From an uncultured Tenacibaculum sp. (GTDB lineage: Bacteria; Bacteroidota; Bacteroidia; Flavobacteriales; Flavobacteriaceae), in contig CAKZVD010000059.1 in assembly GCA_937922085.1 (NCBI GenBank), positions 1-64,000 on the forward strand: a stretch of 64,000 bases of DNA, given 5' to 3'. The translations under genes and the position numbers were made by a program. Shown in pieces: positions 8,454 to 19,643 of this stretch. A model generated the notes under the pieces. That model ran no database searches. It saw only the letters and a program-made list of their open reading frames with translations, and was not told the DNA's origin. Each line of letters starts with the position of its first letter. Positions within the stretch are counted from its first letter, which is position 1.

Positions 8454-9257
8454 TTATAAATTCCATTCGAATATGTCATAGGGCAAATGAAATAATTTGG
8501 TTTTCCCTATCTCTTTTATTTCAACCTTATCTTCAAATGCATGAATCAATAAATCTTCTTTATCTATTTTACCTATAACACCTTTATCTTCATATAAAAC
8601 GGATACTTGAAATCCGAAATGAAGAAGTACTCCTGGCTTAATATTTTGAGTCTTATTTAAATATTTATAAATCTTTTTAGGTCCACAATATGGAATTTCA
8701 TATCCCCATCTCCTCATACCATAAATGGCTAACTCTGCACAATCTGTACCTATACATAAATCTGTTTGATGTCCATAGTCTGAAATCGTTTTAGGCGGTA
8801 TTATAAATGGTAGATTCAGTAATTCAGTTAAAACACCAGTATAAGAATTATTTTCTCTTACTATTATTTGAACAATGTTATTATGCTCAAAATGTATTGG
8901 CTTTTTTGATTTTAAAGAAGTTATAGAAGTTTTAAACCTTCCATAATAGTAGGTTCCAGGAGATAAATTAGAAAAGGTTATAATTTTATTATGTTCATTT
9001 TTTTCTACTTCATTTACATTATAGAAAATCTCCTTTATTGTATGTATTCCTTCTGATAAATTATCGTATTCTTTTAATACTGGCTTAATTTCAACCCATT
9101 TCCCAGCATTTTCTGTTGTTAATGTTACTTTCTCTCCTTTAGTAATCTTTATTGTTGATTCATAAATAGGAGAAGAATTATTAACACTAATTAATATTTT
9201 AGAGTCTATTGGTTTTATACTAAAAAGTAGAGATGCTATGTAAAAAACTAATTTCAT
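8454..9257 (-). CDS. Exported protein, possible NlpC/P60-like papain fold
   Basis: A 267-aa exported protein with a short signal peptide (KLVFYIASLLFSIKPIDS). Residues ~20-130 are beta-rich, with an Ig-like end at SNLSPGTYYYGRFKT. The C-terminal half has a Cys-containing helix start, LCIGTDCAELAIYGMRRWGY, then a hydrophobic strand LLHFGFQVSVLYED and a second His at LLIHAFEDKVEI. The order Cys on a helix, then His on a strand, resembles NlpC/P60-type amidases and papain-like folds (compare DCSGLV...HVGIY...IHA). This fold call is inference. The start codon overlaps the upstream gene's stop by 4 bp (ATGA), indicating translational coupling. Confidence 0.55.
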   Translation of the reverse strand: MKLVFYIASLLFSIKPIDSKILISVNNSSPIYESTIKITKGEKVTLTTENAGKWVEIKPVLKEYDNLSEGIHTIKEIFYNVNEVEKNEHNKIITFSNLSPGTYYYGRFKTSITSLKSKKPIHFEHNNIVQIIVRENNSYTGVLTELLNLPFIIPPKTISDYGHQTDLCIGTDCAELAIYGMRRWGYEIPYCGPKKIYKYLNKTQNIKPGVLLHFGFQVSVLYEDKGVIGKIDKEDLLIHAFEDKVEIKEIGKTKLFHLPYDIFEWNL

Positions 9258-10543
9258 TTATACCCTAAAAGAAATAGTTCAGAAATACAAGTATCATTAT
9301 ACGTCGTTCCTCTATAAACTTCTAAAATGGTAATGGTTATTTTTCTCATTTTAAAAATAGCTTCACCATAATCACCTATTATAGCACTTAAATGATAAAA
9401 ATTTCGAGAATTTATTTGTTCATATTTTTTATCTTCAAATGTAAATTCTTTATTAATTACTTTCGTTTTTTCTTTATCATAATAATCAACATAATCTATT
9501 TTCACTTTTATCTTTTTTAAACGATTATTTTTCTTAAAAACCTCTGCATTTTTAGAATACCCATTTATTAAACAAATAGCCGCTAAATTATAATTATCAA
9601 ATTCTATTTCAATCTTCTCTCCTATTCCAGCTCCTTTTTTACCTTCTGCCCATGCAGTATTAAAATTAGTGTCAAATAAATTTTCCTTCCCATAATCTCC
9701 TTTCAATTTAGAAGAAACTTTCACTTTTTTTATATGCTTTTCAGGTATCTTATGTTTTAATACATATTCTGAAAATTTTTCAGATTTATTTTCATAGGAA
9801 ATATACAAAGGGAGTGCATTTTTTAAATCAAAATTATTTTTAGTTAAATTATAAATTCCTTTATTCTTTGATAAAGAAAGCCCTTTAACATTCACCTTTC
9901 CTCCATGAGCTATAATTTTAGAAGCATCTACCTCTATATTCATTGATTCTACTGAGCCATTCCCCCATTTATGTGCGGGGGTAAAATCATAAATGAATTT
10001 TCTTTCATCATAATTTTCAAAAAAACTTTTACTTGTTGCCCAATCTATAAAACTATTCTTAACCTTATAACTAACTGCTAATTGTATTATTTCTTCTTTT
10101 TCTATAGAGAATTCTACCACATACCATCTTCTTTTTACAGAAACCTCATTCTCTTTAAAGTCTTTAACTTCTGATTTAAATTCTGAAAGATCTGTTTGAC
10201 TTTTTAAAGGCAAGGCATTTTCATTCATGCTAAACTTAATATCAATCAAAAAATCTTCTCCTTCTTCTCCCCAGTGAGAGTTTGCAAGTAATTCTATAGG
10301 AAAACCATATGTGATTCCTTTTTTATAGGAACTTTTATTTTCAAGAATATAATTTACAGTTACTAAACTATAATCTCCATCTAATTTAATTTTAAGATTT
10401 TCCTTAATCAATTTAATATCTGCGTATTTCATTAAAACAATATCTCCTGTTTTATAAAATACAGATCCATCTATAGGGCCACCATTTGCAAAAGTTTTAA
10501 GAATGATACTTAAAAATAGTAACGTAAAAAGCTTTTTCATCAT
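9254..10543 (-). CDS. Exported DUF4424-like protein with NADase-type glycan-binding (discoidin-like) domain
   Basis: 429-aa exported protein. After a signal peptide (KKLFTLLFLSIILKTFA), residues ~20-250 match the DUF4424 pattern: an N-terminal GD.VLMKYADIKLIKENLKIKL strand pair, a VNYILENKSS strand and a FPIELL turn. Residues ~275-415 look like the discoidin-fold NADase-type glycan-binding domain, with NLFDTNFNTAWAEGKKGAGIGE, then LINGYSKNAEVFKKNNRLKKI. Together this suggests a periplasmic or surface glycan-binding protein. A TATGTTTG -7 element lies 23-30 nt upstream, and the downstream partner overlaps by 4 bp. Functional role unknown. Confidence 0.72.
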   Translation of the reverse strand: MMKKLFTLLFLSIILKTFANGGPIDGSVFYKTGDIVLMKYADIKLIKENLKIKLDGDYSLVTVNYILENKSSYKKGITYGFPIELLANSHWGEEGEDFLIDIKFSMNENALPLKSQTDLSEFKSEVKDFKENEVSVKRRWYVVEFSIEKEEIIQLAVSYKVKNSFIDWATSKSFFENYDERKFIYDFTPAHKWGNGSVESMNIEVDASKIIAHGGKVNVKGLSLSKNKGIYNLTKNNFDLKNALPLYISYENKSEKFSEYVLKHKIPEKHIKKVKVSSKLKGDYGKENLFDTNFNTAWAEGKKGAGIGEKIEIEFDNYNLAAICLINGYSKNAEVFKKNNRLKKIKVKIDYVDYYDKEKTKVINKEFTFEDKKYEQINSRNFYHLSAIIGDYGEAIFKMRKITITILEVYRGTTYNDTCISELFLLGYK

Positions 10544-10578: not shown

Positions 10579-11286
10579 CTATAATTTATTCTTTCCTTCT
10601 ACCGAAATTTCTGAGCCTTCTAATAACATAATTGAAGTTGGTGTTACCTCTCTCAAAAATTCAAAATTGGTTCCATAAGTTGCTTTAAAATCTATTTCAA
10701 TGTTTGAGTTTATTACTGGGTAATATTCCCATTTAGGGTGTCTTACCTCATACTCTGTCGTTTTTGTAGCTGTCTCTTTTGCATAGCCCCAATAATGTTC
10801 AGAAATAAATTCTATTACTGAGTTTTCTTCTATACTCATAGGTTTGTTCTCTGCTTCTACTTCAATTAAGTTCCATTTTTTATTCTTTTTCCATTGATAA
10901 CCAACTTTTAAATTTTCTTCTCCAATTTCCCAAGAGTGCTTCATTGGTAATGTTTCATAATTTTCATTGTAAATGGTATTGGCTATAAAAGTAATTGCTG
11001 GTTTTGGTACAATCTCTTTAATAAAAACGACTCCACGTTTTACTTCTCCATTTACAGTTCGCTTAACATAAAATCGAAGATTTACCTCTTCAAAGTTAAT
11101 ATGAAATGGTACTTTAAACCCTAATAATTTTGTGTTTTTAAACATAAAACCTACCACACTTACATAACATTTACCTTCAAAAAAATCGAGTTCTGTACCA
11201 TAAGGAACATACTGTTTTAATACCTCCGGATCTATCTCATAGTTTACCATGATTAATTTTCTCCATGCTGCTTTTAAAAAACTCAT
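10579..11286 (-). CDS. DUF2071 (YqjF-family) protein
   Basis: 235 aa, full-length match to the DUF2071/YqjF family. It opens with the signature FLKAAWRKLIMVNYEIDPEVLKQYVPYGTELD, continues with CYVSVVGFMFKNTKLLGFKVPFHINFEEVNLRFYVKR, and ends in a hydrophobic strand region. Members are soluble, about 230-250 aa, with an acetoacetate-decarboxylase-like fold by family knowledge; no reaction is established. It is the last gene of the GbsR cluster and overlaps the upstream ICMT-DCC gene by 4 bp, so the two are coupled. In many bacteria DUF2071 genes sit with DCC and SRPBCC genes, as here. Confidence 0.88.
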   Translation of the reverse strand: MSFLKAAWRKLIMVNYEIDPEVLKQYVPYGTELDFFEGKCYVSVVGFMFKNTKLLGFKVPFHINFEEVNLRFYVKRTVNGEVKRGVVFIKEIVPKPAITFIANTIYNENYETLPMKHSWEIGEENLKVGYQWKKNKKWNLIEVEAENKPMSIEENSVIEFISEHYWGYAKETATKTTEYEVRHPKWEYYPVINSNIEIDFKATYGTNFEFLREVTPTSIMLLEGSEISVEGKNKL

Positions 11287-12554
11287 ATTTCTTTTTTATT
11301 TATTTTACATGTAATATTCTCAGAATCTTCAGAAAATCCTAATGCATCTACAATTGCTTGTAAAATGAAACTAATTACAGGAAATCGCATAAACCAACCT
11401 ATACTTGCATATCCTAAATGAATATGCTCTAATGCATGTGCTATAGCCTTTACACTTTTATACTCTTCTCCTGAAGTATGTATATAAGTTACTTGTGTTA
11501 ATTCTTTTCCTGTATAATTCTCTGAATACTTTATATTTAAATTGATGCTACCTTGTTTTTCAAACCATTCTTTAATTCCTTCACACTGGTTACAATCTTT
11601 TTTAAAATAGATAATTCCTTCTGGAAACGTTTTAGGTTTCCATTGAAAATACCAACTAGGTACATTTTTTTTATAGGTATTCCACTTACTCCCAAAACGT
11701 TCTTTCATATCTTCATATTCTTGTCCGTTAGAAACACCTATTGTATAAGCAATAGATATTAAAACTCCTGATAGTAATAAATAAGATTCATGGTATATAG
11801 AAAGCGGAATAAACAATATTGTAAACGACCATTGAATCGGATTTTTTATATAGGCATACACACCTGTTGTTACTAATAGTTTTGTTTTATCGTACGGAAA
11901 AGGGGTTCCATTTCCTTTCTCTACCAAATCAATTACTCCCATAAATGAAGGAAAAGCTATAATACATATAATTTGAAACCATAACATTGAAAAACTACTA
12001 AATTCAAAAGTACCTGTTTCATATATTTTTATGCTAAAAGGAACTACAATGGTTAAAAATAATGACATCGTTGCTACTTGTAACAAAGCTCTTATAGCTA
12101 ACTGTTTTTTTTCATAACTAAATTTCCCCCATAGATAACTAGGTAAAAAAACAAGTAGAATTAATAGAAACTCTCCTATCACCCAATTTGAATTCAATTT
12201 TAATATTTCAACCTTTTCTATATATGGCATTGCTAATAAATCAATCCAAAGTAACGACGCTAATAATATCAATAGATATTTTCCTTTAAAAATGTAAAAA
12301 GGAAGCAACCAAAAAAACAACCAAATAAAGAGAATATCATATGGCATTTTTATACTATTTATTTCTTTAAAGTGCCATAAATCAAGTTTTACACAGTAGT
12401 AGTTACCTATTGGTAGTGAAAACAACATCCAAATAAAACTATAAAACAACCCCCAATTCAATTTCTCAGATTGTTTTTGTTTTAGAAAAAAAGCTGTGAG
12501 TAACACAAATATAATTGCGACTAAAACAGTTCGTATTTGAGGCATTGTAATCAT
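11283..12554 (-). CDS. ICMT/PEMT-like membrane methyltransferase fused to a DCC (DUF393) domain
   Basis: 423-aa membrane protein with two parts. Residues 1-300 have about eight to nine hydrophobic segments and end in an isoprenylcysteine/phospholipid-methyltransferase-like block: LLVTTGVYAYIKNPIQW, then EYEDMKERFGSKWNTYKKNVPSWY. Residues ~312-415 are a DCC thiol-oxidoreductase-like domain (GIIYFKKDCNQCEGIKEWF, then IHLGYASIGWFMRFPVISFILQAIVDALG) with a CNQC motif. The fusion suggests lipid or isoprenoid modification linked to a thiol redox step, but this is inference. It abuts the upstream SRPBCC gene with no gap and overlaps DUF2071 downstream. Confidence 0.75.
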   Translation of the reverse strand: MITMPQIRTVLVAIIFVLLTAFFLKQKQSEKLNWGLFYSFIWMLFSLPIGNYYCVKLDLWHFKEINSIKMPYDILFIWLFFWLLPFYIFKGKYLLILLASLLWIDLLAMPYIEKVEILKLNSNWVIGEFLLILLVFLPSYLWGKFSYEKKQLAIRALLQVATMSLFLTIVVPFSIKIYETGTFEFSSFSMLWFQIICIIAFPSFMGVIDLVEKGNGTPFPYDKTKLLVTTGVYAYIKNPIQWSFTILFIPLSIYHESYLLLSGVLISIAYTIGVSNGQEYEDMKERFGSKWNTYKKNVPSWYFQWKPKTFPEGIIYFKKDCNQCEGIKEWFEKQGSINLNIKYSENYTGKELTQVTYIHTSGEEYKSVKAIAHALEHIHLGYASIGWFMRFPVISFILQAIVDALGFSEDSENITCKINKKEI

Positions 12555-13424
12555 TTATTTTACAGTAAAATAAGATTGTATTAAATGTTCATTCATTAAA
12601 TTAATAGCATATTTTTCAAAAGCTTCAAAATACCAAGAAGGTCCTAAATCACAAACAAAATCTGTTGTCCAAACTACTTCTTTTATTCCTGCTCTTTCTC
12701 TTACTTCAACTTTAATTTCTTTATAGGTTAACCAATGATTTATATGCGTATTATCACTTTTAATTTTAAAATAGATCGTGTTTTCTGTTCGTTCTTTTAT
12801 CTCTAAAACTAACTGTCCAACTCCTTTTGTAGAAGACTTAAAATCAATTGTTCTAGTATCACCAATAGCTAATCCTTCTCCTTTACTATGTATCGGTTTT
12901 GGAAATCCAATTTTGAAAAAGGTAGGTAGTTTACTTAAAAAATCAGGATGTTTATTTAATGTCGAAATATTTAATTTAGTATCTATTTGTTTAACTGTTT
13001 CTATTGAATGTGTTTTTTCTTCACCCACATAATCTAAAGGATTAAACAATACAAGAAATAAAGGTATTGTAATAAGTGAATACGTTTTATTTTTATCTTT
13101 TTTATCTAAATATTCATAACCCCACACTAAAACAGCTGTTACTGCGTAAAAAAGTGGCGCCATAAATAAAATACAAACAAAACCTTCTCCTAAAAAGATT
13201 CCACTTATTAATAAAAAGATTGTGATTGTTAAAAATGCAACTCCGTACGCAGATTTTGGCTTTTTAGAATATCTAATAATTAATATGGTTATTAATGTAG
13301 GTATTCCAATAAACAATAAAGATGTTTGTTCTAAAGAATTATCTCCTAATAATCGAAATGCAATACTTGCTATTGCAATTACTAATACAATTAAGTATAA
13401 GGTTGCTTTTTTATTCTCTTTCAT
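12555..13424 (-). CDS. Membrane protein with C-terminal SRPBCC-like domain
   Basis: 289 aa. Residues 1-125 hold four hydrophobic segments (starting ATLYLIVLVIAIASIAFRLLG). Residues ~150-285 look like a SRPBCC/polyketide-cyclase ligand-binding domain: FFKIGFPKPIHSKGEGLAIGDTRTI, a strand run VVWTTDFVCDLGPSWYF, and a long C-terminal helix FEKYAINLMNEHLIQSYF. Such domains bind lipids or hydrophobic ligands. The gene overlaps the upstream small membrane protein by 14 bp and directly precedes the ICMT-DCC gene, so it belongs to the same operon. No exact family recognised. Confidence 0.62.
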   Translation of the reverse strand: MKENKKATLYLIVLVIAIASIAFRLLGDNSLEQTSLLFIGIPTLITILIIRYSKKPKSAYGVAFLTITIFLLISGIFLGEGFVCILFMAPLFYAVTAVLVWGYEYLDKKDKNKTYSLITIPLFLVLFNPLDYVGEEKTHSIETVKQIDTKLNISTLNKHPDFLSKLPTFFKIGFPKPIHSKGEGLAIGDTRTIDFKSSTKGVGQLVLEIKERTENTIYFKIKSDNTHINHWLTYKEIKVEVRERAGIKEVVWTTDFVCDLGPSWYFEAFEKYAINLMNEHLIQSYFTVK

Positions 13425-13809
13425 TTTTATTTATTTTATAAATCTGTTCGGTTATATAGGTAAAAAACAATGAAAGAATAATAGGTATTAATACTAAAAC
13501 ATATCCTAGAAAATCTATCTTAAATGGAATCGATTCTGCTACAAAATATAAGACAAAGCATATCACAATATATATACCTACCGAATTAGTATATCTATTT
13601 AATTTTTTAAGATTTACAGTATCCTTTTTTACTATTAAAGGAGATATAATAAGTGCTGCTATTATTTGAAAAGCTCCTAAAAAAATTGCCAACATTGCCG
13701 CATAAAAAAAATATTCTCTTATTAAAGTAAACCCTATTAAAATTAGACTTACAAACAACAACATTACCAATCTATTTAGCCATGTTATAATTAAAATTGT
13801 TTTTTCCAT
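13411..13809 (-). CDS. Four-helix membrane protein, paralogue family in GbsR cluster
   Basis: 132 aa, four hydrophobic segments. It shares a pattern with the 116-aa and 126-aa proteins of the same cluster: NRLVMLLF near the start, LAIFLGAFQIIAALI in helix 2, a YF-rich helix 3, then LIPIILSLFFTYITEQI before a charged tail. All three seem to be copies of one family with no name that I recognise. Its position between the SRPBCC genes points to a shared membrane role. Overlaps the next gene by 14 bp. Confidence 0.65.
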   Translation of the reverse strand: MEKTILIITWLNRLVMLLFVSLILIGFTLIREYFFYAAMLAIFLGAFQIIAALIISPLIVKKDTVNLKKLNRYTNSVGIYIVICFVLYFVAESIPFKIDFLGYVLVLIPIILSLFFTYITEQIYKINKNERE

Positions 13810-13827: not shown

Positions 13828-14304
13828 TTATGTATATAAAATCTCTTTCCATTTATCTGTTTCTGCATACTCTTTAATAGTATCGTTTCTCAATTTAAGA
13901 AAACCCTTCATATATTTTTCTAAAAATAGAAAATCTACAAACTTGCCTAAAAAACCTAGTGGTGAATGATACTCTAAAACATCTACCAAAGTAGTTGTAT
14001 TATCTTTATATGAAAAATAGTGTTCATGTTTAAAACTTTTAAAAGCGCCAGATACCATTTTATCTGCAAAATACTCTGACTCTCTACAACCTGTTACTTT
14101 AGAAGTGAAATTTTGATAAACTCCTAAATGTTTTGCTCGCCAAGTAACTGTTTCATTTAATTCTATAAGACCTGTTGTTCTACCCGCTATTGCTTTTTCA
14201 TTGGTTTCTTTTGTTGACTCCTTATGTAACTCTATACTTCTAGAAAGATCAAATACTAGCTTTTTAGCTGCTTTAATTTTTGTAAATAATACGATTGTTG
14301 GCAT
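13828..14304 (-). CDS. SRPBCC-family ligand-binding protein
   Basis: Soluble 158-aa SRPBCC protein of the type often annotated as cell-division-inhibitor/CDP-paratose-epimerase-associated. It begins PTIVLFTKIKAAKKLVFDLSRSIELHKES. The middle contains GLIELNETVTWRAKHLGVYQNFTSKVTG, and it ends in the DFLFLEKYMKGFLKLRNDTIKEYAE helix. I use the ATG at 14304. The ORF-track start at 14364 adds 20 residues that do not fit the family and overlaps the upstream gene. In Flavobacteria this protein typically neighbours a TIGR01777 epimerase, which is the adjacent gene here. Ligand unknown. Confidence 0.82.
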   Translation of the reverse strand: MPTIVLFTKIKAAKKLVFDLSRSIELHKESTKETNEKAIAGRTTGLIELNETVTWRAKHLGVYQNFTSKVTGCRESEYFADKMVSGAFKSFKHEHYFSYKDNTTTLVDVLEYHSPLGFLGKFVDFLFLEKYMKGFLKLRNDTIKEYAETDKWKEILYT

Positions 14305-14357
14305 CTTTTTATTTTTTAAAATGTGAAAATTTATATGAATAGATTTATACCTATCAA

Positions 14358-15257
14358 TTAACATTCCATAGTAAACTCTTTAAACTCTTTTGTATTAAAT
14401 TTAAATCCTAAGCCTAATAGTTTCTCAGGATATACATTTCTACTTTTTAATAATAATTCCGTTTCTGTTCCTATAAAAACTGCTCCTATTTTTAACATCC
14501 ATTTTGGTGCATTTAATCCGAAAGGGATTTTTAACTTCTTTCTCAATTCTTTTTGAAAAGCTTTATTTTTTATTGGGTTGGGTACGCAAACATTATATAT
14601 CCCTTCTTCTTTATCAATTAAAAAATTAATTGCTTTTATATAGTCTTCTTCTGTAATCCAACTTATAAACTGATTTCCCTTTCCTTGCTTTCCTCCTAAA
14701 CCAAATTGTGTCATTCTTTTCATTATAGGAAAGGCTCCTCCTTTATTTCCTAACACTATAGAAGTTCTTGTAATTATTTTCTTTGTTTTTGGTAATTCAT
14801 AATTATTAAAAACTTGTTCCCATTTTTTACACACATCCATAGAAAAATCAATTCCTGTTTCTCCATTATTCTCTGTCATTAATTTCTTTTCTGAATGTCT
14901 GTAAATAGTCGCTGAAGAAGACTGGATAAATACTTTAGGTGGAAAAACTAACTCTTGTACTACCTCACATAATAAAGCGGTACTCTGCAATCTACTCTGA
15001 TAAATTTCTTCTTTGTTCTTTTGAGTGTATTTACAGTTTACTGATTTACCTGTTAAATTAATTAACACATCTGTGTTCTCTAATAAAGTAGACCAATATC
15101 CTTTCGTTTTTCCATCCCATTGTATGTAATTAACGTTTTCTACATTTAACTTTTGCCTCCTTGTTAAAATGTAAATTTGATTCTCTTTTCTTTTCTTATA
15201 AAATTCGGTAAGCAACTCTCCCAAATATCCAGTTCCTCCAGCGATTACTATTTTCAT
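14358..15257 (-). CDS. TIGR01777-family epimerase/NAD(P)-binding SDR protein
   Basis: 299 aa from the ATG at 15257, where the Rossmann strand starts (KIVIAGGTGYLGELLTEFY, a GGxGxxG dinucleotide-binding motif). The track's longer start adds 14 unrelated residues. Later blocks are INLTGKSVNCKYT, QSSSATIYRHSEK, WEQVFN, RTSIVLGNKGGAFPIMKR and the family hallmark FISWITEEDYIKAINFLID. Members are of unknown substrate (YfcH-like). It is co-directional with SRPBCC and DCC genes, a common neighbourhood for this family in marine Bacteroidetes. Confidence 0.87.
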   Translation of the reverse strand: MKIVIAGGTGYLGELLTEFYKKRKENQIYILTRRQKLNVENVNYIQWDGKTKGYWSTLLENTDVLINLTGKSVNCKYTQKNKEEIYQSRLQSTALLCEVVQELVFPPKVFIQSSSATIYRHSEKKLMTENNGETGIDFSMDVCKKWEQVFNNYELPKTKKIITRTSIVLGNKGGAFPIMKRMTQFGLGGKQGKGNQFISWITEEDYIKAINFLIDKEEGIYNVCVPNPIKNKAFQKELRKKLKIPFGLNAPKWMLKIGAVFIGTETELLLKSRNVYPEKLLGLGFKFNTKEFKEFTMEC

Positions 15258-15324
15258 AATTTTGTTATTTAAAACAAGGAAATAAGTTTGCCTTGTCACT
15301 ATTCTTTTAAAATTTCTTTCTTTT

Positions 15325-16143
15325 TTATCCTATTAATAATAGTAATACAATCATTCTATAGGCTACCCATGTATATGATAAATAACTTGGTAACGCTAAC
15401 AATTTTACTCTTCTTTTATGTTCAAAAAACATTAATAATACAACTCCTCCAAATGAGCATAAAATGAATAGTTGAGGTAACCCTATAATTGCATTTAATA
15501 GTAGTATTTGAAATAGACCAATACAACCTATTAACGAAACCGTCATTAAATTCCCTATATAATTTATACTTCTTTTGATGCCTTTTTGAACTAAAAACAT
15601 TCCTTGAAAAGCAATTTGACCAGCCGCAATCATCAATTCAATTTTAAAATTAGCAATTGGCATACTCGTTATTAAGCTTGAAAAATTGAATAGCGTATAA
15701 GCAGTAACTAACACAGAAAAAAAAATAAATAAAAACCTATATTTAATATTAAAACTAGGATTACATTCCAACACATTCACTTCTTTCTTTTCTGATGGAA
15801 TAATTACTTTTCTATTGTATGAAACAAATGAATACAACTTTTTAAGACCAAAATATACGAATGACGTCTTCCCTATTTTTTCAACTACCGGAAAAGAGTT
15901 CCCTATCACTTTTAGTAAGCTATCTATACCATAAATTACATTTTCATTTTTAGTATCTACTAAAGCTATTTCATTCGTTGCTCTTTTTACATCTATAAAT
16001 TTCAACTCCTTTTTAGTCAGGTTTTCAAATGGTTTTCTTCCATTTCTATCTAACATCTCTGTTTTTATAAAGCCATTCGTATAAAAATTACACAACGGAC
16101 ATTCGGTATCGTATAGTAAAGTATGATTGTTAAGTGTGTTCAT
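15325..16143 (-). CDS. DCC-family (DUF393) protein with C-terminal membrane domain
   Basis: 272 aa. Residues ~8-115 are a DCC thiol-oxidoreductase-like domain with the family opening LLYDTECPLCNFYTNGFIK (CPLC motif), a conserved IYGIDSLLKVIG strand-helix, and FGLKKLYSFVSYNRKVI at the end. Residues ~130-272 have about five hydrophobic segments. This is the second DCC protein of the cluster; the other is fused to a methyltransferase domain. DCC proteins are predicted thiol-disulfide oxidoreductases, but none has a well-defined partner here. A 67-nt gap before the downstream epimerase gene contains a 6-bp inverted repeat. Confidence 0.8.
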   Translation of the reverse strand: MNTLNNHTLLYDTECPLCNFYTNGFIKTEMLDRNGRKPFENLTKKELKFIDVKRATNEIALVDTKNENVIYGIDSLLKVIGNSFPVVEKIGKTSFVYFGLKKLYSFVSYNRKVIIPSEKKEVNVLECNPSFNIKYRFLFIFFSVLVTAYTLFNFSSLITSMPIANFKIELMIAAGQIAFQGMFLVQKGIKRSINYIGNLMTVSLIGCIGLFQILLLNAIIGLPQLFILCSFGGVVLLMFFEHKRRVKLLALPSYLSYTWVAYRMIVLLLLIG

Positions 16144-16173: not shown

Positions 16174-17052
16174 TTATTTCTTTGCAGAAACGATATAGTA
16201 TCCAAAATCTTGTAAGCATAAACTCGTTAATAGTGCATAATATGAACCCTTCATATTATCTATGCTTTCTTTTTTTAAAGGTTCATTTTTAAACCACTTT
16301 TTTAAAATAAATCCACAAATCATAAATGGAACATGTAAAACAGAAGGAGCTACACGGTACCAAATATTTTTTATTACCACCTCTTTAAATCCAACTTCTT
16401 CTAACTCTTTTTTTACCCTTTTAATATTACCTAGCCTTTCTAAACTCCAACATTTAGATAAACCTTTATGCACTTTTTTAGATAAGAAATTCATCTTTCC
16501 TTCTTCTGTTTTACAGAAAGCATCTGCTATAATTAATTTAGAATTAGGATTTAAAATTCTATATGCTTCTTCTAAGGTTTCTTTTGAACATCCTGAATGA
16601 CAAAAACTTTCAATAGCCATTGCTCCATCAAATTTATTTTCAGAAAACTGTGTATTTCTATAATCTCTATTTTTTATAATTGCTCTCTTATTATTTATAA
16701 ACTTATTTCCTTCTTTCTCTTGAAATGTAGAAAGAGTGCAACCAGTGATTGATAAATCAGGAAATTTATTTACTCCATACCTCATCGTTCCTCCAATACC
16801 GCAACCAAGATCTATAATATGTGCTTTCTTATTTTTAATTTCTAACATTGAAAACAACTGATTATTCATTTCATTTAACATCGTATCCCTTTTAAAAGGA
16901 TTCGTTTTAAATGGAATATAATAACCAAAATGCATGTTTAAATCTTTGCTCCATAATTGATAATCTTCTGTTGCTTCATTATAAAGTTGCATCACTCCTT
17001 CTTCATTTGTTTTCTCTTTAATGTCTTTTCGTAGTTTTAAAACTGTTTCCAT
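16174..17052 (-). CDS. Class I SAM-dependent methyltransferase
   Basis: 292 aa with a clear Rossmann methyltransferase core. Motif I is HIIDLGCGIGGTMRYG (about residues 77-92). Further motifs are AIIKNRDYRN, FDGAMAIESFCHSG, and the post-I segment LEEAYRILNPNSKLIIADAF. The layout, including a Gly-rich motif I and a helper helix before it, resembles tocopherol- or sterol-type small-molecule methyltransferases. The C-terminal part contains a hydrophobic stretch (VLHVPFMICGFILKKWF), suggesting membrane contact and a lipid-like substrate (inference). A palindrome shared with two other genes of the cluster lies 25-42 nt upstream of the start, suggesting direct control by the GbsR-type regulator. 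Confidence 0.82.
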   Translation of the reverse strand: METVLKLRKDIKEKTNEEGVMQLYNEATEDYQLWSKDLNMHFGYYIPFKTNPFKRDTMLNEMNNQLFSMLEIKNKKAHIIDLGCGIGGTMRYGVNKFPDLSITGCTLSTFQEKEGNKFINNKRAIIKNRDYRNTQFSENKFDGAMAIESFCHSGCSKETLEEAYRILNPNSKLIIADAFCKTEEGKMNFLSKKVHKGLSKCWSLERLGNIKRVKKELEEVGFKEVVIKNIWYRVAPSVLHVPFMICGFILKKWFKNEPLKKESIDNMKGSYYALLTSLCLQDFGYYIVSAKK

Positions 17053-17076: not shown

Positions 17077-17094
17077 TTTCAGAAATTTTTGAAA
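17077..17094. promoter_or_regulatory. Candidate GbsR-type operator, site 1
   Basis: TTTCAGAAATTTTTGAAA, an 18-bp near-palindrome 25 nt before the methyltransferase start at 17052. It is one of three copies of the same motif in this cluster. Confidence 0.6.
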
Positions 17095-17114
17095 GTTTGT
17101 TTTTAAATTTTTTT

Positions 17115-17465
17115 TTACTCTTCTAATTTTAATTTTTCTAAATAAAAAGTGAAACTAAAGGCTAAAACTAATGGAAGACCCAAAAAAATCACTTCTCTTA
17201 AAAAATCGATTCTACTACTATTTCCTAAAGAATATCGCCAAAAAATAAAATAAAGAGCCAGTAATGTTAAGTAACTTAAAACAAACGTCTTTTCTTCTTT
17301 ATTTAGTTCTCTCCATTTTAAAAGCTCTGTTAAGCAAGACAATGATTGAAATAAACCTAGAGGAATAGCTAACAAGGCTGCAAATACTAAAAATTCGCGA
17401 TTAAAGATTCCTACAAGTAATAACAAAGAAAAGAGTATCATTAAAAATCTATTTATATATTTCAT
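17115..17465 (-). CDS. Four-helix membrane protein, paralogue family in GbsR cluster
   Basis: 116 aa, four hydrophobic segments. Shared family pattern: NRFLMILFSLLLL at the start, LLAIPLGLFQSLSCL in helix 2, YLTLLALYFIFWRYS in helix 3, and a VLAFSFTFYLEKL end. It is a paralogue of the 126-aa and 132-aa proteins in the cluster. A copy of the 18-bp palindrome sits 3 nt before the start codon, so a bound regulator would cover the leader. No known name. Confidence 0.62.
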   Translation of the reverse strand: MKYINRFLMILFSLLLLVGIFNREFLVFAALLAIPLGLFQSLSCLTELLKWRELNKEEKTFVLSYLTLLALYFIFWRYSLGNSSRIDFLREVIFLGLPLVLAFSFTFYLEKLKLEE

Positions 17466-17467
17466 AT

Positions 17468-17485
17468 TTTCAGAAATTATTGAAA
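17468..17485. promoter_or_regulatory. Candidate GbsR-type operator, site 2
   Basis: TTTCAGAAATTATTGAAA, followed by GTTTA. It directly precedes the start codon of the 116-aa membrane protein (17465). Same 18-bp length as sites 1 and 3. Confidence 0.6.
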
Positions 17486-17546
17486 GTTTATATCTGTTTT
17501 TTAATCTAGCATTGATATAATTTAATTGACAAAAAAAATCGATTAT

Positions 17547-17927
17547 CTAGCTATTTAATATTTTATCATTAGTAAGTATATGTAAATACTCTATTATTAT
17601 TGTAAATAATAATGTTAATAAGATTGGAATGGTTATTGGATGTATAAAATTAGTGATATGATTAAATACACTATATCTAGAAATAAGAAAATAGAGCAAT
17701 AGAATAACTAAATAACTTCCTAAACCTATTTTAATATTTAAACTAAAATTATTCCAAAAACGCAAAAAAAATAAAGCAGTAATAATATGAAAAGCGCCTA
17801 AAATAAGCGTAAGAAATAATTGAAAAAAAACCATATATTTCGATGTATATTCAAAAATAAATAACAATGCTGCTCCAAAAACTAAAAACCTATTTACAAG
17901 TATGATTACATTAATTGAATTTTTCAT
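17547..17927 (-). CDS. Four-helix membrane protein, paralogue family in GbsR cluster
   Basis: 126 aa, four hydrophobic segments with the same ordered motifs as its two paralogues: VNRFLVFGAALLFIF, LTLILGAFHIITALFFL, YLVILLLYFLISRYS, and TIPILLTLLFTIIIEYL. It starts 8 nt after the regulator gene's stop, so it is likely co-transcribed with it and is the first target gene of the cluster. Function unknown; a small integral-membrane role is all that can be said. Confidence 0.62.
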   Translation of the reverse strand: MKNSINVIILVNRFLVFGAALLFIFEYTSKYMVFFQLFLTLILGAFHIITALFFLRFWNNFSLNIKIGLGSYLVILLLYFLISRYSVFNHITNFIHPITIPILLTLLFTIIIEYLHILTNDKILNS

Positions 17928-17935
17928 TATTATTT

Positions 17936-18442
17936 TTACTTTTTAATCATTTTAGTAAAACTAGATAACAACCAATGTTCATCTGCTTTAATTGCTTTAT
18001 CTAAAATATTATTTACTGTAGAAGTAACAGAAGATAAATCTTGCATTAACTTTTTAAATTGCTCAGCTTCTTCAGACTCTTCTTTAACATCGTTTTGTAA
18101 TTCTTCTAATACTTTTATAACAGGCTCTATTTCTCTTTTCTTTCTTTCTTTAGTTACTTGTTTAAATAATTCCCAGATATCTTTATCAGCTACAAAAAAT
18201 TCTTTACGCTCCCCTACTACAAATTCTTTTCGTACAATTCCCCAATCAATTAATGCGCGAACATTCATATTTACATTACCTCTAGATATTTTTAAAGTAT
18301 CCATTATATCTTCAGCAGACAAAGGTTCTATAGAAACTAATAACAACGCATGTACCTGTGCCATCGTTTTATTAATTCCCCAACTTGTTGCTAAACTACC
18401 CCAAGTTTGTATGTATTTTAATTTTGCTGCTTCTAATTCCAT
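17936..18442 (-). CDS. GbsR/MarR-type transcriptional regulator
   Basis: 168 aa. Residues ~10-95 match the GbsR family winged helix: LKYIQTWGSLATSWGINKTMAQVHALLLVS, then PLSAEDIMDTLKISRGNVNMNVRALIDWGIVRKEF. The C-terminal half is a long charged helix pair (EIEPVIKVLEELQNDVKEE) for dimerisation. GbsR-type proteins are repressors that bind palindromes. A matching palindrome lies 29-46 nt upstream, over the probable -33 region, with a TATCTTTG -7 element between, so autoregulation is likely. It heads the 11-gene minus-strand cluster and is divergent to an ECF sigma gene. Effector unknown. Confidence 0.88.
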   Translation of the reverse strand: MELEAAKLKYIQTWGSLATSWGINKTMAQVHALLLVSIEPLSAEDIMDTLKISRGNVNMNVRALIDWGIVRKEFVVGERKEFFVADKDIWELFKQVTKERKKREIEPVIKVLEELQNDVKEESEEAEQFKKLMQDLSSVTSTVNNILDKAIKADEHWLLSSFTKMIKK

Positions 18443-18446
18443 GCCT

Positions 18447-18454
18447 CAAAGATA
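18447..18454 (-). promoter_or_regulatory. Bacteroidetes -7 element (TATCTTTG, minus strand) of the GbsR-type gene
   Basis: Lies 5-12 nt before the ATG at 18442, so the leader is very short. The palindrome at 18471-18488 falls where the -33 element would be. Confidence 0.5.
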
Positions 18455-18470
18455 TACATAATTTCTAAAC

Positions 18471-18488
18471 TTTCAAAAATTATTGAAA
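18471..18488. promoter_or_regulatory. Candidate GbsR-type operator, site 3 (autoregulatory)
   Basis: TTTCAAAAATTATTGAAA in the divergent region between the regulator and the ECF sigma gene. Flanking bases AAAC match those of sites 1 and 2 on the opposite strand. Confidence 0.6.
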
Positions 18489-18562: not shown

Positions 18563-19051
18563 TTGAGCAACGATTTTTATATCACATCTATTTTACCTCA
18601 TGCAGGCATTATTATTAAGATATGTAGAGCTTATACAGATTCTCAAGAAGATTTTGAAGATTTCTATCAAGAAGCATGTTTACAGGTTTGGAAAAGTAAA
18701 GATGCCTTTCAAGAAAAATCTAAATGGTCTACATGGGTATATAGAGTTACCTTAAATGTTTGTTTAACATTAGCTAAGAAAAACAAAAGAAGAGGTTATA
18801 ATGTAGAAATCACGAATCAACGAGAAAACGCAGAAAACAATAGTGCTTTCGAAGATGAGGATTTAAACTTGTTATATGCTGCTATTAAAAAGCTTTCAGA
18901 AATAGATAGAACTATCATTTTATTGCATTTAGAAGAAAACCCAAATAAAGAAATTGCTGTAATTATTGGAACTAGCGCTAACAATATTGCAGTACGTATT
19001 AACAGAATTAAAAAACAATTAAAAATATTATTAGATGGAAAAATCAATTGA
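18563..19051 (+). CDS. ECF-type RNA polymerase sigma factor
   Basis: 162 aa. Region 2 covers residues ~10-75 (HAGIIIKICRAYTDSQEDFEDFYQEACLQVWKSKDAF, then SKWSTWVYRVTLNVCLTLAKK). Region 4 covers ~108-155 (LSEIDRTIILLHLEENPNKEIAVIIGTSANNIAVRINRIKKQLK). The start is TTG at 18563, as no ATG gives full region 2. The next gene overlaps by 17 bp and encodes a membrane protein that may be its anti-sigma factor. The gene is divergent to the GbsR-type regulator, and the shared operator region could affect both. Confidence 0.88.
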   Translation: MSNDFYITSILPHAGIIIKICRAYTDSQEDFEDFYQEACLQVWKSKDAFQEKSKWSTWVYRVTLNVCLTLAKKNKRRGYNVEITNQRENAENNSAFEDEDLNLLYAAIKKLSEIDRTIILLHLEENPNKEIAVIIGTSANNIAVRINRIKKQLKILLDGKIN

Positions 19052-19643
19052 AGACATATGGACTAAAGGTTTTACAGGTTCAAAAGAATTAGTAACTCCT
19101 AAAATATCAAACCTTTACAATCAAAAATCTAAATTATTATTAGAAAAAATTAAAAAAACATATAGAGCAGATAATAATAGTATACTTCCCCTAGCTCTTT
19201 TATTTGGAATTGGGTTTAGTATTTATGGCAAATATTTATTGGTCATTTATGGTGTCTTTTTATTAATCAGTTTATACTTTTTTAATAGAAATTTATTAAA
19301 GTCTCTAGAAAATGTTCAAGTAACAAATAACACTTATGAGTATTTAACTTCATATCGTAAAAAAGTAAATGAAATTATGGCTACAACCACTCGGTTATTA
19401 GGTTTTTTATTTCCATTAGCTATAATACCAGCTGTTTGGTTATTCTTTAGAGATACAGATGTATATATGACACTTATTAATAAAGTAACTACTTTAAAAC
19501 TTGGCTTAGTTATTTCTGGTATTGCCTTATTATTTAGTATACTATCTATATCTGTTTATAAGATTACAACAAAGATTCTATATGGTAATTATTTAAATAA
19601 ATTAGATGCTATAATTGATGACTTAGAAGATTTAAACAACTAA
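19035..19643 (+). CDS. Membrane protein, possible anti-sigma partner
   Basis: 202 aa with four hydrophobic segments (ILPLALLFGIGFSIYGKYLLVIYGVFLLISLYFF; LLGFLFPLAIIPAVWLFF; LGLVISGIALLFSILSISVYKI). The N-terminal ~35 residues are charged and cytoplasmic (KSIEDIWTKGFTGSKELV), which could bind the sigma factor. It overlaps the sigma gene by 17 bp, so co-translation is expected. The arrangement sigma plus membrane protein fits ECF sigma/anti-sigma pairs, but the canonical zinc anti-sigma motif (HxxxCxxC) is absent, so the role is inferred from position. Confidence 0.62.
   Translation: MEKSIEDIWTKGFTGSKELVTPKISNLYNQKSKLLLEKIKKTYRADNNSILPLALLFGIGFSIYGKYLLVIYGVFLLISLYFFNRNLLKSLENVQVTNNTYEYLTSYRKKVNEIMATTTRLLGFLFPLAIIPAVWLFFRDTDVYMTLINKVTTLKLGLVISGIALLFSILSISVYKITTKILYGNYLNKLDAIIDDLEDLNN

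Follow-up and report, generated by a model that had tools for sequence, protein, structure and literature searches.

B. subtilis GbsR, a GbsR-type MarR protein, is a choline-sensing repressor of gbsAB and opuB (PMC7396694). Its operator is an A/T-rich inverted repeat located 3' of the transcription start, a position from which it has been shown to act as a roadblock at both gbsAB and opuB (PMC7396694), and autoregulation affects gbsR. B. subtilis OpcR represses opuB and opuC from an operator that overlaps the -35 region, and CydE of Alishewanella is a GbsR-type repressor with a local target, cydAB (cited in PMC6207618). The template structure for the GbsR family is that of Mj223 (1KU9), from Methanocaldococcus jannaschii. 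A survey of GbsR-type proteins reported that their gene neighbourhoods in Bacteroidetes give no coherent pattern (PMC6207618).

The locus described here lies in a 64,000-nucleotide stretch of an uncultured Tenacibaculum sp. genome (contig CAKZVD010000059.1), hereafter the window, in which a GbsR-type regulator gene (17936-18442, minus strand) and two genes 3' of it are each preceded by a copy of one palindrome. We read the three palindromes as operators through which this regulator would repress its own gene and impose a roadblock downstream, and assign this reading a probability of approximately 0.87. The locus resembles that of B. subtilis GbsR, with which it is likened by description, in the type of protein, the A/T-rich inverted-repeat operator, the proposed autoregulation and the placement of its downstream sites, and resembles that of OpcR in that the regulator-proximal site overlaps the -33 box as the OpcR operator overlaps -35. 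It differs from both in its targets: the choline/betaine genes controlled by GbsR (gbsAB/opu) are absent from the window cluster and from the recurring families of the 121 regulator loci compared below, the osmoprotectant importers controlled by OpcR are served by another promoter type, and GbsR half-sites are described as four base pairs apart. CydE has the same GbsR-type character and local target, whereas cydAB genes occur neither in the window cluster nor in the recurring operon families of its relatives. Switches of this kind are familiar; what appears to be unreported in the literature searched is the regulon with its operator and its reach across the phylum, and searches on the site sequences and the gene toolkit gave nothing relevant there.

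The regulator and its three palindromes

The regulator is a 168 residue protein, encoded by a single copy gene, with a predicted N-terminal MarR-type winged helix-turn-helix (helices 25-36, 43-50 and 54-66; wing strands 70-73 and 82-85) followed by long predicted C-terminal helices (90-118, 124-152), which may correspond to the helical dimerization domain of GbsR-type proteins. It scores above the cut-off for MarR_2; its best profile is CudC (E 1.6e-15), yet this match falls below the equivalog cut-off; and the best match in PDB, making it the closest solved relative, is Mj223 both by profile (E 1.7e-22) and by predicted fold (E 5.6e-10). On account of these matches the protein is, by profile and fold, filed as GbsR-type, in agreement with the GbsR/MarR-type assignment of an earlier first-pass annotation of this DNA, and not as a choline sensor. 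Several aromatic residues, candidates for the cage that binds choline or betaine near the linker in the subfamily, occur at 74-93; among them, W90 and F93 give way to other residues in many of the distant homologues. The recognition helix, SRGNxxMN (SRGN-x-x-M/T-N), is near-invariant across all homologues, which fits the constant half-sites described in the next section.

The first-pass annotation had also placed 18 bp palindromes at 17077, 17468 and 18471, in non-coding gaps and each 5' of a gene start. All three are present as exact matches to TTTCANNAATTNNTGAAA, with zero mismatches to TTTCARWAATTWYTGAAA, every copy in the gap 5' of a minus-strand gene. Operator 1 (18471-18488; TTTCAATAATTTTTGAAA on the minus strand) is the regulator-proximal copy and lies 28 bp 5' of the regulator start at 18442. 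Operator 2 (17468-17485, minus strand; TTTCAATAATTTCTGAAA), which has counterparts in relatives, lies 2 bp ahead of the start of a 116-aa membrane protein gene (17465), and operator 3 (17077-17094, minus strand; TTTCAAAAATTTCTGAAA) lies 24 bp ahead of a methyltransferase start (17052) in an A/T-rich context, TAAAAAAA(A)TTT..AAAC, that is common to the downstream sites of relatives. Conserved flanks refine the consensus to 26 bp, AAACTTTCAATAATTATTGAAAGTTT.

Within the window alone the motif is in weak excess: allowing up to 3 mismatches there are 15 matches, compared with 9.7 expected, and 7 of 100 shuffles reach 15. Significance was taken from exact matches and from conservation. The whole 3.67-Mb genome contains three exact matches to TTTCANNAATTNNTGAAA, all in this cluster, and its reversed control contains one; the motif is thus not frequent in unrelated AT-rich gaps, a point on which the first-pass annotation had asked for a check. 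Searches allowing up to 2 mismatches return background (272 matches versus 264 in the reversed control), and the looser pattern TTTCA-N8-TGAAA returns 33 versus 20 for the control, with context read for six near-matches only. Additional targets in the same genome were considered and rejected, because all six of these near-matches (one-mismatch or half-site) fall inside ORFs.

Conservation and linkage of the site

Both the site and its position are kept 5' of the same regulator in more than 100 species across Bacteroidota. Scanning genome contigs for the regulator yielded a first set of 80 loci, which come from Tenacibaculum, Polaribacter, Aquimarina, Chryseobacterium, Moheibacter and Empedobacter; to this set we added loci from 20 more Flavobacteriaceae genera (most regulators 46-58% identical) and 20 from other families and orders. 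With few exceptions, loci of the first set have one site 5' of the regulator and another between the regulator and the next gene. The 20 added Flavobacteriaceae loci carry AAACTTTCAATAATTATTGAAAGTTT or a near form approximately 45 bp 5' of the regulator; in other orders the half-sites are constant and the center differs, as in AAACTTTCAAAATATTTTGAAAGCTT. The site is kept alongside regulators only 41-58% identical, in genera of several orders.

Conservation before the same gene had been proposed as a check, and for the regulator it holds: the exact core TTTCA-N8-TGAAA occurs between -160 and +20 in 113 of 121 loci, with the placement of operator 1 (-45/-46 bp) recurring in relatives, and a second site occurs no more than 160 bp 3' of the regulator in 102 of 121. 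These counts rest on tblastn starts of the regulator, and they are not independent, as the loci are related by descent; the ten core positions are exact by selection in the site tables, so that what counts as evidence is the proportion of loci passing. Outside the regulator region, the core was found 12 times in 1.1 million positions, or approximately 0.002 expected per locus-sized stretch. Six loci encode the same recognition helix with no recognizable operator near the regulator, most of them in GC-richer genomes, and most GC-rich long homologues are without the site. One locus has TTTCAATGATCGTTGAAA at -185.

Linkage of site to regulator was assessed in 151 genomes of the family (one per genus plus one extra), taking E below 1e-40 as a regulator homologue, which 30 genomes clearly possess. 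The exact TTTCARWAATTWYTGAAA site is present in 21 of these 30 (linked in 20) versus 10 of the 121 genomes without the regulator, where it is scattered and sporadic (Fisher test, p about 1e-11, among genomes that are related). The 30 regulator-bearing genomes hold 26 linked exact sites and 2 unlinked ones, which fits the local regulon suggested by the first-pass annotation, and in another genome of the same genus both the regulator and the site are missing.

The same comparison bears on the idea that some other factor co-regulating the cluster binds these sites, with the neighboring regulator a bystander. An ECF sigma gene (18563-19051) does start across operator 1 and is kept there in many Tenacibaculum loci. 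The sites nevertheless track the regulator and not the sigma gene, since the site is retained in Chryseobacterium and other genera whose upstream neighbors differ; regulator-less genomes have few exact sites; and toward the sigma gene no TAnnTTTG occurs at a constant spacing. We consider a bystander role quite unlikely. As far as comparison of genomes can tell, the sites very probably serve as the operator of a GbsR-type repressor that controls its own gene and a regulon confined to a single locus. The original impression of an autorepressor with a local regulon is supported by the sites, their conservation, their linkage and the promoter geometry described below, from which we infer binding and repression.

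Promoter geometry and mode of control

The Bacteroidota promoter consensus consists of a -33 TTTG and a -7 TAnnTTTG, TANNTTTG (PMC6847099). As the first-pass annotation had noted for the third palindrome, operator 1 overlaps the putative -33 region of the regulator: it contains a TTG (18474-18476, minus strand) placed 19 nt from a -7 box, TATCTTTG (18447-18454, minus strand; TTG-N19-TATCTTTG), which itself ends 4 nt before the ATG. Among the 113 upstream sites of relatives, 103 have TAnnTTTG at 18-20 nt after site positions 13-15, and 81 of these have it at exactly 19 nt. At positions 13-15 themselves, TTG stands in 103 of the 113 upstream sites, compared with CTG in 77 of the 102 downstream ones (p 8e-25 with no correction for kinship; the 20 scattered Flavobacteriaceae genera taken alone give p 4e-4), a contrast to be expected if the first site has to double as a -33 box. 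On the simplest reading, either T or C would be tolerated by the protein at the first of these positions, and T would be kept upstream as part of the promoter.

Where a -7 box was recognized, a gap of 4 nt separates it from the ATG in 37 of 37 loci of the Tenacibaculum/Polaribacter group and in 17 of 19 from other Flavobacteriaceae; Chryseobacterium has approximately 25 nt between the two. Because the G of the -7 box lies at -5 (PMC6847099), transcription is predicted to start at the A of the ATG (18442), such that the regulator mRNA is predicted to be leaderless. Leaderless transcripts account for only 5.5% of mapped mRNAs in Flavobacterium psychrophilum (PMC9723704). Control of the divergent sigma gene through the same -33 overlap was considered as well and rejected, because a -7 box is not found at any constant spacing on its strand.

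Under the arrangement we favor, a regulator dimer would bind AAACTTTCAA-N6-TTGAAAGTTT-like sites; on operator 1, a palindrome present over the regulator's own promoter, it would cover the -33 box and exclude RNA polymerase, so that the regulator represses itself and also, by way of read-through, the operon. The two downstream sites would act on ongoing transcription as roadblocks, or else on promoters too weak to recognize, and would lock the membrane-protein and enzyme genes more tightly than the regulator gene until a signal releases the dimer. By analogy with B. subtilis GbsR, a roadblock is the likeliest mode for these downstream sites. Their distance to the next ATG is 2 bp in 20 loci and 15-20 bp in many others, and among the 102 loci with a second site TAnnTTTG occurs at no fixed offset beside it. 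In Chryseobacterium (most of L042-L080) a terminator-like hairpin (AAAGGAT..ATCCTTTTTT) was seen by eye between the regulator stop and the second site, on which account the second operator in this genus would be expected to control a transcript of its own, although a consensus promoter was not seen.

From placement alone, the downstream sites could serve either sign of control, and the regulator might in principle activate its targets from them. A site over -33 suits repression, however, as do sites at start codons that no promoter follows, and those GbsR-type proteins that have been characterized act as repressors (PMC6207618, PMC7396694), so that we regard activation as very improbable. The sites might instead act in RNA, as hairpins ahead of start codons, an idea encouraged by operator 2 stopping 2 bp short of the ATG and by the like placements in 20 relatives. 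For the two downstream sites, however, the hairpins are predicted to reach only -1.8 kcal/mol (z -0.5 and -0.8 relative to shuffles); positions 6 and 13 of the downstream sites are usually A and C, respectively, a mismatch in RNA; and transcription of the regulator is predicted to begin 3' of operator 1, leaving that copy outside the transcript. As its hairpins are no better than shuffles, the RNA reading was rejected, and we find it scarcely credible. Repression by a protein bound to DNA is the reading we retain for all three sites.

Gene row and recurring families

Beginning from the regulator, the minus-strand gene row extends to a DUF2071 protein (10579-11286; E 9.9e-56), the probable far end of the controlled row. 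Between them lie genes that appear to encode a 126-aa small membrane protein directly 3' of the regulator (17547-17927); its 116-aa paralogue (17115-17465); a SAM-dependent methyltransferase (Methyltransf_11/CMAS-like, 16174-17052); a DCC1-like thiol-disulfide oxidoreductase with a membrane part, below the Pfam cut-off (15325-16143); a TIGR01777 NAD-dependent epimerase-like protein (14358-15299, likely start 15257); an SRPBCC/polyketide-cyclase-like protein with a weak Pfam match (13828-14364); a 132-aa small membrane protein (13411-13809), paralogous to those of 116 and 126 aa; a 289-aa membrane protein (12555-13424); and a 423-aa PEMT/isoprenylcysteine methyltransferase-like membrane protein, just below cut-off (11283-12554). 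None of the three small paralogous membrane proteins has a Pfam or NCBIfam match.

Judged by comparison with the other loci, the window layout is a local rearrangement, in part common to one of them (L004), in that the 126-aa paralogue directly follows the regulator, and sites 2 and 3 precede the 116-aa protein and the methyltransferase. A methyltransferase downstream of the site, to which the first-pass annotation drew attention, is not a general feature, being present in only a few loci.

Over the 121 loci the most frequent operon families are TIGR01777 (63), a 115-aa membrane family (60), DUF2071 (54), SRPBCC-like (52), DCC1-like (45) and the 116/126-aa membrane family (36), with DoxX-like, fatty-acid desaturase, PNPOx-like and methyltransferase families less frequent. 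Gene order and choice vary among loci and the family set is largely constant, which suggests one physiological theme; we offer, with little confidence, a cell-envelope or membrane-lipid/redox response as a guess. We would put at slightly less than even odds the fuller proposal of a phylum-wide, single-locus GbsR-type regulon of Bacteroidota, with a fixed operator, a leaderless and self-repressed regulator mRNA, a second operator acting as a roadblock at the start of the target operon or within it, and, as its output, a previously unrecognized envelope or membrane-lipid response drawn from an interchangeable gene toolkit.

The operator supplies the neighborhood pattern that had been missing for Bacteroidetes: it defines the regulon, shows the regulon to be local and shows which families recur, tying together TIGR01777, DUF2071, SRPBCC, DCC1-like, DoxX-like and small membrane proteins, several of them of unknown function. 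What turns out to be an ordinary kind of switch is old, local and well defined, and its 26 bp site is a ready probe for binding tests and for a search for the signal.

Some further features of the locus were observed. Divergent from the regulator, on the plus strand (18563-19643), the ECF sigma gene (Sigma70_r2/r4, possibly with a TTG start) is followed by a gene for a 202-aa membrane protein, possibly an anti-sigma factor, and the pair is kept there in many Tenacibaculum loci. The PEMT/isoprenylcysteine-methyltransferase-like part of the 423-aa protein is seemingly joined to a C-terminal CxxC (DCC-like) part, an arrangement noted in three loci. At the end of the row, a 429-aa protein (9254-10543, minus strand) contains a 'NAD glycohydrolase translocation F5/8 type C' domain (E 8.5e-26).
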